A stretch of DNA of 64,000 nucleotides from Fimbriimonadaceae bacterium (GTDB taxonomy: Bacteria > Armatimonadota > Fimbriimonadia > Fimbriimonadales > Fimbriimonadaceae): assembly GCA_019454145.1 (NCBI GenBank), contig CP075366.1, positions 847,564-911,563 on the forward strand, given 5' to 3'. This document shows positions 56,319-60,106 of the stretch, one piece after another (within the stretch, counting starts at the first letter, position 1; each line of letters starts with the position of its first letter). Made by a program: the position numbers and the translations under genes. Under the pieces are notes generated by a model. That model saw only the letters and a program-made list of their open reading frames with translations, did no database searches and had not been told where the DNA came from.

Positions 56319-57035
56319 TTAGCGAGCCATTTGCTCGGCAAGAGCAACCAGCTCATCTGGAGTTCGTTCTCCAAATAGAATGCACGTGTTGTTGCCTAGG
56401 TTCCATGTAACGCAATTGACTCCGTTCATTTGGCCCTTGCGGATTCCTGGATTCTGGGTTGGATTGTCAACGCCCTCCACTCGGTCAGCACCAGCAACAA
56501 CAACCACTGAAAGGCCGCCTAAGCCATTACGATCTCTGAGGCCAAACCGGACAAACTCGCGGTTGTCCAGTCTTCCCCCAATGGAACTGGTCATCGTAAA
56601 CCCTTGAAGGTTTAACTGCCTTGCCGCCGATATATCTGGATTGCGGCTTACTGCAACACCAGAACCGATGGGGTCAAGGACACTTGCGATCTGGGTCGAG
56701 GTCACAACGCGAGAGCTCACCATTCTATTGGCAAAACCGCCCGCTACAATCATGAGCATCAAAGCTCCGCAGAGTGCCCATGCATACTTTCCAACAAATC
56801 CTTCTGCTCGCTTAACTCGGTCAAGTTCATCCAGCCGGCCAACGCACGACTTCCAGCCTTCCTCGTTAGCAATCGGCTTACAGCCATCCGCTAGCGCGGC
56901 CTTCATAGAAAGCGCCCATTCGTATTCAGCTCGGCACTGGGCATCTGTTTCCAGCAGCCGCTTGGCTTCTGCCGCTTCCGATGCAGAGACTTCTCCATCG
57001 GCGTATGCGTGCATCAACTCAAATTCATGACTCAT
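56319..57035 (-). CDS. putative anti-sigma factor without the zinc motif
   Basis: A 238-aa single-pass membrane protein. The cytoplasmic part starts FELMHAYADGEVSASEAAEA, the usual opening of zinc-binding anti-sigma domains, and there is a transmembrane helix at about residues 84-106. The normal HxxxCxxC zinc motif is not present; only one Cys (about residue 33) lies in that region. The periplasmic part ends CVTWNLGNNTCILFGERTPDEL, with two Cys nine residues apart. It overlaps the sigma gene by 4 nt. It most likely binds the ECF sigma factor upstream. Confidence 0.75.
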   Translation of the reverse strand: MSHEFELMHAYADGEVSASEAAEAKRLLETDAQCRAEYEWALSMKAALADGCKPIANEEGWKSCVGRLDELDRVKRAEGFVGKYAWALCGALMLMIVAGGFANRMVSSRVVTSTQIASVLDPIGSGVAVSRNPDISAARQLNLQGFTMTSSIGGRLDNREFVRFGLRDRNGLGGLSVVVVAGADRVEGVDNPTQNPGIRKGQMNGVNCVTWNLGNNTCILFGERTPDELVALAEQMAR

Positions 57036-57601
57036 TTCTCGCTTTCCTGCTTAATGTAACCCTCTTGGAGGGCAAATCGTTCCAGTTCCCGACGGAGAAT
57101 TGCTCGTCCTCTGGCAATGCGCGAACGCACGGTTCCAACCGGAACATCTGTTGCAAGTGCGATTTCATCGTAGCTCAACCCTTGTAAGTCGCTGAGAATC
57201 ACCGCAATCTTAAAAACGTCCGGTACTTGGGACAAGGCTTCTTCAACTTCGGCCCCCAACATTTCATCAAATACCAACCGGTCAGGGCTGTATTCGGCTG
57301 GCCCTACTGGTTCGTACGAATTCTCGTCATCGTCCAGCGAAACCACCAATCCCGTGCGCTTTTTTCGTCGGTACTTGTTAATGTAGAGGTTGGTAAGAAT
57401 GCGCAGTATCCATGCCTTAAAATTCTGCCCATCAAAGCGTTCAAACGCTTCGTAGGCTCGCACGATCGCTTCCTGCGCCAAGTCCTCTGCTTCCTCGCGA
57501 TCACGGGTCAGGCGGAGCGCCGTACCGAAAATCGATGGGTAAGCGTCTTCAGCCTGTCGTTGAAAGCGATCGCGTAGAGAGTTGGCTCTAGAAAAGAGCA
57601 T
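57032..57601 (-). CDS. ECF-family RNA polymerase sigma factor
   Basis: A 189-aa ECF sigma factor of the SigE/RpoE type. Region 2 contains RDREEAEDLAQEAIVRAYEA and WILRILTNLYINKYRR (promoter melting and -10 recognition). Region 4 contains DVPVGTVRSRIARGRAILRR after YDEIA (-35 recognition). The linker of about 35 residues is rich in acidic residues. It is followed by the anti-sigma factor with an ATGA overlap. Target genes are unknown. TAGAAT lies 12 nt before the ATG; no clear GGAAC-type autoregulated -35 was found. Confidence 0.92.
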   Translation of the reverse strand: MLFSRANSLRDRFQRQAEDAYPSIFGTALRLTRDREEAEDLAQEAIVRAYEAFERFDGQNFKAWILRILTNLYINKYRRKKRTGLVVSLDDDENSYEPVGPAEYSPDRLVFDEMLGAEVEEALSQVPDVFKIAVILSDLQGLSYDEIALATDVPVGTVRSRIARGRAILRRELERFALQEGYIKQESEK

Positions 57602-57719
57602 GGATGCTGCGCGATTCTACCTCTGACCAGGTTCAACCCGTTCAGTGCCAGTGACGTTCCCGTAGTAAAAAGAAATTGCGAATAACCGCAAATATGCTGG
57701 GACTGTTAGACTTGCGTAA

Positions 57720-58571
57720 CTAGGCTGCGATATTGAACGACGCCATCACTTTATCAAGCTCTTGCTGAACGACTTGCAAAATGATCGGTATCTGCTCGAC
57801 CGGAAGTTCCACATCTTTGGCAAACTGAGCCACATCTGGAACCTTGGTCACCCCTGGGCCAGCATAGCCGCACATCACCGCGACCTTTTCGCCAAGATTC
57901 ACGAGTTTGGTTGACTCATAGTATTGACCGTCTTTGTTTGGCTCCCGGTGATACCGAATTCCGTTGCGCATGAGGTCATTGAGATGCCATTTTTCTGCAA
58001 GCAGTCCACCAACTTCTGTATGGTCGTAGCCAACAATATTCGTTTCAGCATCGTAAAGAGGAATCCCGGTTTTGAGACTGAGTTCAATCGCGGCATCAAG
58101 TTCTTTTGGCATGAATCGCTCAAAAATGAGAAGTCCGATGTCATGCATCATTCCCGTGCAATAGAGTTCTTCGCTCTTCACTGGCAACCGGAGCTTGCCA
58201 ATGACTCGGCATGCGATAGCGGTTGCAGTGGAATGCTGCCAGTACTGCAACTTATTAAAATGCTTTGATTCGGATTTATTCCCTGTCATCTGCTGGAACG
58301 AAATCCCAATCACCAGCGAGCGGATTGCCGACATCCCGAGAAAACTAATCGCCCGCCCTATGGTTGGTGCGCTGTTTCCCCCGTAGTAAGAGGAGTTTGC
58401 AACCTTCAGAATCTTTGCCGTTATTGCCGGATCCTGTTCAAATGCTTTTTCAAGATGTCGCTGATTCGCATTTGGGTCGTCGGCGAGTCTCATGATTTCG
58501 CTGACCGCTTGTGGAAGCACCGGAAGATTCTCGCTTCGGGCCATCCTTATTTCTAGACTCGCTAGTTGCAC
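57720..58571 (-). CDS. HDOD domain signalling protein
   Basis: A 283-aa HDOD-domain protein (stand-alone, without a receiver or GGDEF domain). It shows LPVLPQAVSEIMRLADDPNA, then DPAITAKILKVANSSYYGG, which is the hallmark of the family, and FLGMSAIRSLVIGISFQQM. These modules lack most metal ligands of true HD domains and regulate motility, nitrate and stress responses in other bacteria. The start at the GTG (58571) has TAATAT 6 nt upstream. An ATG 27 nt inside with AAGG nearby is an alternative. Confidence 0.85.
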   Translation of the reverse strand: MQLASLEIRMARSENLPVLPQAVSEIMRLADDPNANQRHLEKAFEQDPAITAKILKVANSSYYGGNSAPTIGRAISFLGMSAIRSLVIGISFQQMTGNKSESKHFNKLQYWQHSTATAIACRVIGKLRLPVKSEELYCTGMMHDIGLLIFERFMPKELDAAIELSLKTGIPLYDAETNIVGYDHTEVGGLLAEKWHLNDLMRNGIRYHREPNKDGQYYESTKLVNLGEKVAVMCGYAGPGVTKVPDVAQFAKDVELPVEQIPIILQVVQQELDKVMASFNIAA

Positions 58572-58666
58572 AGGTAAATATTAGGCAACTGTTCACTCCG
58601 TCTTCAGACTGAACCTGAACGAATTGTAAGAATATTCACCAGACCTATTGTTGAAACTTAACTGGC

Positions 58667-58701
58667 TTGAAAATTGTCTACTTGAGTGTATAGCACTAAA
58701 G
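58667..58701 (+). promoter_or_regulatory. promoter and HAIR operator of dnaJ-hspR
   Basis: A possible -35 TTGAAA (58667-58672) and -10 TATAGC (58689-58694) have a 16-nt spacer. Over the -10 lies CTTGAGT-N7-ACTAAAG (58681-58701), which matches the HspR inverted repeat HAIR (CTTGAGT-N7-ACTCAAG) at 13 of 14 bases. A further half-site CTTGAGC is at 58704-58710. The position over the -10 fits repression by the downstream HspR. Confidence 0.82.
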
Positions 58702-58712
58702 TGCTTGAGCGC

Positions 58713-59708
58713 ATGAATGCAATGAAGAATGATTATTACGCTCTCTTAGGCGTCAGTAAAAAGGCAGATGAAAAAGAAATCAAAGCTGCTTATCGCAAAC
58801 TTGCGCGTAAATATCACCCAGATTTGAACCCAAATAACCCTGAAGCCGAACAGAAGTTCAAAGAAGTTAGCGAGGCGTACGAAGTGCTATCGGATCCCGC
58901 AAAGCGGAAGAAATACGATATGTTTGGCTCAAACTGGGATCAAGTCGCTCAGCCAGGAGGAGGCGGAAATCCGGGGGGAGTTCGTTTCGAAGACATCGGC
59001 GGAGCCGGATTCGGCACGATTTTCGAGCAATTTTTTGAAGGGTTTGGTGCGCGAGGCGGTGATCCTTTTGCCGCTCAACGCCGTGTGATCCCCGCAACCG
59101 ACCTAGAACAGGCAATCACTTTGACTCTTGAAGAAATTGATTCCGGGGTTCGGCGAACACTCACCTATAACGCAAAAGATGCCTGCGTGAAGTGCAAAGG
59201 CTCGGGTCAAGTGCAAACCAACGACCGCCAAATGGCCGCGTGCCCCAACTGCAATGGAACTGGAATTGTTTCTCGCTCCCGCCGGGTTGAAGTCACGATC
59301 CCCGCAGGAATCGCTGATGGCAAGCGACTGCGAGTTTCGGGCGGCGGCACAAAGGGTTCAGATGGTCGGCAAGGCGACCTCTATGTTCTCATCAACCAGG
59401 CGCCTCACCCTAAATTCACACGAAAAGGCGACGACCTGGAAACTGAAATCGAAGTTGATTACTTAGAAGCCGTGCTCGGAGGAGAATCAAAAGTGCCGAC
59501 TCTGCGTTCTAGCGGAACAGTCACGATTCCACCAGGAACCTCAAGCGGAAAGCTGTTCCGGTTGAAAGGCCAGGGCTTAACGAAAGCGAGTGGAACTGGC
59601 AAAGGTGACCTCATCGCTAGGGTCAAAATTACAATTCCGACAGAACTTTCACCTAACGAGCGAAAGCATCTTGAAGCTGCTCGAAAATCAAGGATTAGCC
59701 AAAAATGA
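58713..59708 (+). CDS. DnaJ-like co-chaperone with a half-size zinc domain
   Basis: A J-domain protein of about 331 aa. The J domain (residues about 7-70) has [12 protein letters not shown] with the HPD signature. A Gly/Phe-rich linker follows, then a cysteine region with only two of the four CxxCxGxG motifs (CVKCKGSG and CPNCNGTG, about 20 residues apart). Two substrate-binding beta domains complete it. Type I DnaJ has four such motifs and two zincs, so this protein should bind one zinc. It stimulates DnaK ATPase. It has a HAIR operator and is coupled to hspR by ATGA. Start at 58713 or 58722; GTG at 58686 lies inside the operator and is rejected. Confidence 0.87.
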
Positions 59709-60106
59709 GAAACACAAAACAACCTGTTTACATGATTGGCGTAGCCGCCGAACTGTGTGGCACTCACCCCCAAACACTACGCCAATACGAAAAACTTGGG
59801 CTTATCATTCCTGCCCGAGTTGGAGCGAAGAACCGACTCTACAGCGAAAACGACATTGCCCGCGTGAAGCAAATTCAACGCTTAACCCAGCAACTCGGCG
59901 TCAACCTTGCTGGCGTTGACATTATTCTAAAGCTTCTAGATGATATGGAAGATATGCGAACGGATTTTGAAGACCAGTTCAACGAATTCGCGAAAGATGT
60001 TGAATTGCGGATTCAATCTATGTCCGCAAATTCCAATGCCCCAGTTCGCCAAGATACGCCGTTAGTTCCCGTCCCTAAACTCAGGGTTCGCCGACGGTTC
60101 GAATAA
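59705..60106 (+). CDS. hspR: MerR-type heat-shock repressor HspR
   Basis: A 133-aa MerR-family regulator matching Hsp[21 protein letters not shown] (winged helix recognition), [30 protein letters not shown] and [14 protein letters not shown]. HspR of Streptomyces, Mycobacterium and Deinococcus represses dnaK-type operons by binding HAIR and is itself released when DnaK is titrated by damaged proteins. It shares an operon with dnaJ and its site is found upstream. The C-terminal about 30 residues are Pro/Arg-rich and overlap the end of the DUF418 gene on the other strand by 45 nt. Confidence 0.92.

Follow-up and report, generated by a model that had tools for sequence, protein, structure and literature searches.

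The dnaJ-hspR locus and its neighbors

The window, i.e. the whole stretch of 64,000 nucleotides that was analyzed, belongs to the genome of a little-studied bacterium in the family Fimbriimonadaceae (phylum Armatimonadota), of which its close relatives are members too. On its forward strand it carries dnaJ (58722-59708) followed by hspR (59705-60106). The dnaJ product contains a J domain and a DnaJ_C domain, as identified with Pfam and NCBIfam, and two of the four CXXCXGXG motifs. The hspR-linked DnaJ proteins of the family relatives contain zero, two or four of these zinc-binding motifs; a second DnaJ with all four is encoded at C1:164293. The ATG at 58722 is most likely the start codon of dnaJ, because a near-identical sister genome has AAG in place of the ATG at 58713 and most relatives start at the position equivalent to 58722. 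The ATG of hspR (59705) and the stop codon of dnaJ (59706-59708) form a 4-bp overlap, so the two genes are probably translated together.

The product of hspR is a MerR-type repressor, identified by alignment and by its match to the NCBIfam model NF047375 (HeatShock_HspR), where it reaches 109.4 bits and thus lies above the NCBI equivalog cut-off of 105. Over the helix-turn-helix it was aligned with relatives that include the HspR proteins of Helicobacter and Campylobacter, and the segments TLRxYE and GVNLAGV are nearly invariant. The sister genome carries an identical HspR.

Upstream of dnaJ, the 21-mer CTTGAGTGTATAGCACTAAAG (58681-58701, forward strand) reads CTTGAGT-N7-ACTAAAG. It has a single mismatch, over 14 defined positions, to CTTGAGT-N7-ACTCAAG, the HAIR consensus for HspR of Streptomyces (PMC6102357). 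The chance of a site with at most one mismatch is about 1.6e-5 per 100-bp promoter, by our own arithmetic of 43/4^14 per position with uniform bases. An earlier reading of the window, made from the sequence only, had reported this near-consensus site over the dnaJ-hspR promoter, and the observation is real. It is best read as the predicted operator to which HspR would bind and repress its own operon. The sequence-only reading had also proposed a closed feedback loop; the gene order, dnaJ followed by hspR, agrees with it.

About 1.1 kb from dnaJ, on the reverse strand, lies a gene for an ECF sigma factor (57032-57601) that is a candidate activator of the regulon described below. Its product contains Sigma70_r2 and r4_2 and has an orthologue throughout the family. 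The best NCBIfam matches are SigE (PRK09647, 2e-37) and SigH_actino (7e-37), both below the equivalog cut-offs (128 against 265 bits and 127 against 252 bits, respectively); the protein is of the same type as SigE/SigH and is not filed as either. The next gene on the reverse strand (56319-57035) and the sigma gene have 4 bp in common. Its product gave a weak match to the antisigma model NF052375 (1.8e-5, below cut-off) and no match in a Pfam search; by its position and the weak model match it is a probable anti-sigma factor. The sigma gene and hspR are found within about 3 kb of each other. The sigma gene adjoins dnaJ-hspR only within the genus of the window, and linkage of sigma and hspR was therefore rejected as a family-wide trait.

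HAIR sites in the genome and in the family

A scan of the whole 2.76-Mb genome for HAIR sites, which the sequence-only reading had suggested, yielded two sites identical to the consensus and two more that deviate from it at one base, against one site for the control pattern. The perfect sites lie upstream of dnaK and clpB: the first (C1:581256) belongs to the only full-length dnaK and ends 46 bp ahead of its start codon, and the second (C1:470996) ends one base ahead of the start codon of clpB. The sites with one mismatch are the dnaJ-hspR operator and C1:2467884, the latter within an amidase-like gene. This distribution is not due to chance, and the earlier view of the J-protein as the sole chaperone linked to the repressor has to be given up. 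Sites with two mismatches were considered as extra HspR targets and rejected, as those that were placed fall inside reading frames. No HAIR site was found at grpE, at the groESL loci or at the other J-protein genes tested.

Across the family, a HAIR-like site with at most four mismatches is present in all 26 dnaJ promoters, all 29 dnaK promoters and 25 of the 27 aligned clpB promoters; one more clpB promoter has none. Shuffled promoters reach the same threshold in about 3-4% of cases. In the 26 dnaJ promoters the site precedes the J-domain DYY codons, nearly always by 46-54 bp. Since the sites at dnaJ-hspR, dnaK and clpB are all conserved in the family, the best reading is that HspR controls a predicted regulon of these three loci.

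The operon had been called unusual for its lack of dnaK and grpE. Within the family, however, separation of dnaJ-hspR from dnaK is the rule, and an HspR-CbpA operon has been reported in epsilon-proteobacteria (PMC4063869). In the sister families (f2-f5) hspR is part of dnaK-dnaJ-hspR or dnaK-hsp20-dnaJ-hspR, and dnaK is preceded by a HAIR-like site; in the family of the window, dnaK is located apart from dnaJ-hspR and each fragment has an operator. In the simplest history, the presumed direction of change included, one operon would have been split and its operator duplicated or re-created. The family would then form a natural series for the splitting of an operon with the operator kept on each fragment.

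A further half-site just downstream of the HAIR site, also mentioned in the sequence-only reading, is indeed present. It reads CTTGAGC (58704-58710, forward strand) and begins after a gap of 2 bp. At the corresponding offset of +23, at least five of the six bases of CTTGAG are found in 17 of 25 dnaJ promoters, which makes this the second-best conserved half-site position among them; all other offsets except 0 reach at most one promoter. In dnaK promoters a third half-site is found at offset 24 in 5 of 29. An RNA hairpin formed by half-sites 2 and 3 was rejected: compensatory changes are absent, and T stands opposite T in 10 of 25 promoters. The lack of co-variation between the two half-sites favors a DNA element over an RNA element, and the third half-site may extend the operator at dnaJ promoters. 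A tentative extension of this view, which we hold to be somewhat less probable than its opposite, is that the dnaJ-hspR operator of the family consists of three half-sites, i.e. HAIR plus CTTGAGY at a rigid distance of 2 bp (3 bp in some dnaK promoters), and that an additional HspR dimer, or a higher oligomer, is thereby placed asymmetrically on the start region of the operon that encodes HspR. If true, extended HspR binding, whose determinants in the flanking DNA are not known for H. pylori (PMC6102357), would find an explanation in the sequence of such an operator.

Promoter type and candidate sigma factor

The sequence-only reading had placed the -10 element in the operator, which is probably wrong. 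A sigma-70 scan of 58560-58740 found no promoter, and the dnaJ-hspR promoter is better read as one of the ECF SigE/SigH type, GAAAC-N18-GTC (58653-58678, forward strand), with its -35 element at 58653-58657, its -10 element at 58676-58678 and the HAIR site covering the expected start site. The consensus GGAAC-N18-19-GTT has been described for SigE promoters of Corynebacterium, and mycobacterial SigE has the identical one (PMC10012870). In the dnaK and clpB promoters of the genus of the window, a GTCCC element recurs about 10 bp ahead of the GAAAC box.

The motif GRAAC-N18/19-GTY was found in 57 of 82 dnaJ, dnaK and clpB promoters, against an expectation of 0.46 by dinucleotide shuffling; as the genomes are related to each other, these counts do not represent independent events. 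By gene, it occurs in 18 of 26 dnaJ, 18 of 29 dnaK and 21 of 27 clpB promoters (0.14, 0.24 and 0.08 expected, respectively). Spacers of 18 and 19 alone are enriched, and random windows from the same loci contain the motif in 1% of cases. About a third of the 82 promoters have no strict match. The dnaK promoter of the genome itself has GCAAC in place of GRAAC. When GCAAC and GTAAC are allowed, the motif is found in the genus of the window at the same place in all three loci wherever an alignment was possible. In the dnaJ promoters of other genera, GTY takes one of two positions that differ by about one helical turn, namely 3-5 bp before the HAIR site or 7 bp into it; dnaK promoters revealed no strict phasing of GTY against HAIR. 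The family thus also forms a series of operators moved relative to a promoter of fixed spacing. A genome-wide count of the strict pattern GRAAC-N17-CGTYA showed no enrichment over the control and was dropped as a definition of the regulon; the motif is therefore meaningful solely where it occurs at these promoters and because it is conserved.

The upstream region of the sigma gene contains GGAAC-N18-GTT (57635-57660, reverse strand; GGAACGTCACTGGCACTGAACGGGTT). Within the family the motif precedes 26 of the 30 orthologues of this gene (0.62 expected) and 1 of 20 paralogous ECF genes. Its presence both here and at the chaperone promoters ties the sigma factor to the same promoter type via likely autoregulation, and this protein is the most likely candidate for reading the promoters of dnaJ, dnaK and clpB. 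Control by HspR together with another ECF sigma factor of the genome is unlikely. Several ECF genes are present per genome, that of the window included, and in f5 a different ECF sigma gene with an anti-sigma gene (zf-HC2 in one genome) is located upstream of dnaK-hsp20-dnaJ-hspR; against this stands the marked difference in motif frequency between orthologues and paralogues. In four f5 genomes the head of the dnaK operon has the same layout of ECF motif and HAIR site. A test based on the joint presence or absence of motif and sigma orthologue was dropped, as f2 lacks a close orthologue and also has GGAAC-N18-GTA/GTT at dnaK. The stretch from the GGAAC-N18-GTT motif to the sigma start codon contains an AGGTAxAATC-like block (about 57608-57625, reverse strand) that is conserved in nearly all orthologues.

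It is rather improbable that HspR represses a housekeeping sigma-A promoter with its -10 TATA in the HAIR spacer, the ECF-like motif then being incidental or a second promoter. A conserved TATA within the spacer of many dnaJ promoters, common as TATA(C)T in other genera, would allow a housekeeping promoter there, and the HAIR-like site that precedes dnaK in f2 and f4 overlaps with a sequence resembling TTGACA/TATAAT. However, the sigma-70 scan was empty, and the TATA is missing from some of the dnaK and clpB promoters; GRAAC-N18/19-GTY, in contrast, is common to all three loci at fixed spacing. In f2, the GGAAC-N18-GTA/GTT motif has no HAIR site on it and lies downstream of the HAIR site that covers the sigma-A-like sequence; the dnaK operon of this family seemingly has two promoters. 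That the HspR-like protein acts mainly as a modulator of the J-protein, as CbpM does on CbpA, with the HAIR match a relic, is highly improbable: the dnaJ-MerR pairing resembles cbpA-cbpM and the protein gives a MerR_2 match, but it scores above the HspR equivalog cut-off, and reaches only 26.8 bits with the CbpM model, and at three separate loci the HAIR sites are conserved throughout the family.

The favored reading of the comparative sequence evidence, held with good but not full confidence, is that an autoregulated ECF sigma factor, the one encoded in the window, switches dnaJ, dnaK and clpB on and that HspR represses them via HAIR. In the absence of stress, HspR would cover the transcription start and block it, and DnaK would probably act as its co-repressor or DnaJ as its modulator. 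Under stress such as heat, by which the three loci would be induced, the chaperones would be titrated and HspR released, and the sigma factor, released from its probable anti-sigma factor, would initiate transcription; fresh DnaK, DnaJ and HspR would then close the loop. Chaperone feedback on HspR is known for DnaK as co-repressor in Streptomyces and for CbpA in Helicobacter (PMC4063869, PMC7074700).

Comparison with known systems

In Streptomyces and Mycobacterium, hspR is located inside the dnaK operon, dnaK-grpE-dnaJ-hspR. The HspR/HAIR regulon of these organisms (dnaK operon, clpB, and lon or acr2) has the same operator consensus and repressor family (PMC2687793). It likewise includes dnaK and clpB as targets and an autoregulated hspR (PMC2687793), features that are predicted here from sequence. 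Here, unlike in these organisms, dnaK is split from dnaJ-hspR, and grpE lacks a HAIR site.

In C. glutamicum, the promoters of dnaK, dnaJ2 and clpB have the consensus GGAAC-N18-19-GTT and are under SigH/SigE, and HspR is one of their other regulators (PMC10012870, PMC3489674). The likeness extends to the promoter consensus at dnaK, dnaJ and clpB and to an ECF sigma factor with a neighboring anti-sigma gene, the latter probable here. The differences are the phylum, the distance of about 3 kb within which sigma and hspR genes lie in the genus of the window, and the motif that, almost throughout the family, stands ahead of the sigma gene; among corynebacteria, autoregulation of sigE seems to be rare (PMC10012870).

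With H. pylori the locus shares a J-protein gene in one operon with hspR and a HAIR-like site upstream. No ECF sigma factor is known to be involved in the H. pylori HspR system. There, cbpA-hspR is one operon, autoregulated via a HAIR-like site, and CbpA binds and modulates HspR (PMC7074700, PMC4063869). HspR of H. pylori occupies a stretch of 70-80 bp around an imperfect HAIR, and the promoters of groES-groEL and hrcA-grpE-dnaK are bound by it as well (PMC6102357).

A search of the literature for any member of the Armatimonadota retrieved no expression, binding or heat-shock data and nothing on HspR or ECF promoters. Control by an ECF sigma factor plus HspR is known from Corynebacterium and Mycobacterium and is apparently undescribed in the Armatimonadota; such two-key control of chaperones appears to have been known hitherto mainly from Actinobacteria. 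The present reading predicts a heat-shock circuit for the Armatimonadota, and the occurrence of this promoter design outside the Actinobacteria would mean that it is either ancient or independently assembled.

CIRCE was considered as the operator at dnaJ-hspR and rejected; CIRCE-like sites are located near two groESL loci instead, as a tandem pair at C1:185143/185197 and as a single site at C1:393622. A gene for hrcA is present at C1:658053. Streptomyces divides the chaperonins, controlled by HrcA, from the chaperones controlled by HspR (PMC2687793). From the CIRCE-like sites at groESL and the presence of hrcA, the genome seems to make the same division between chaperonins (HrcA) and dnaK, clpB and dnaJ (HspR).
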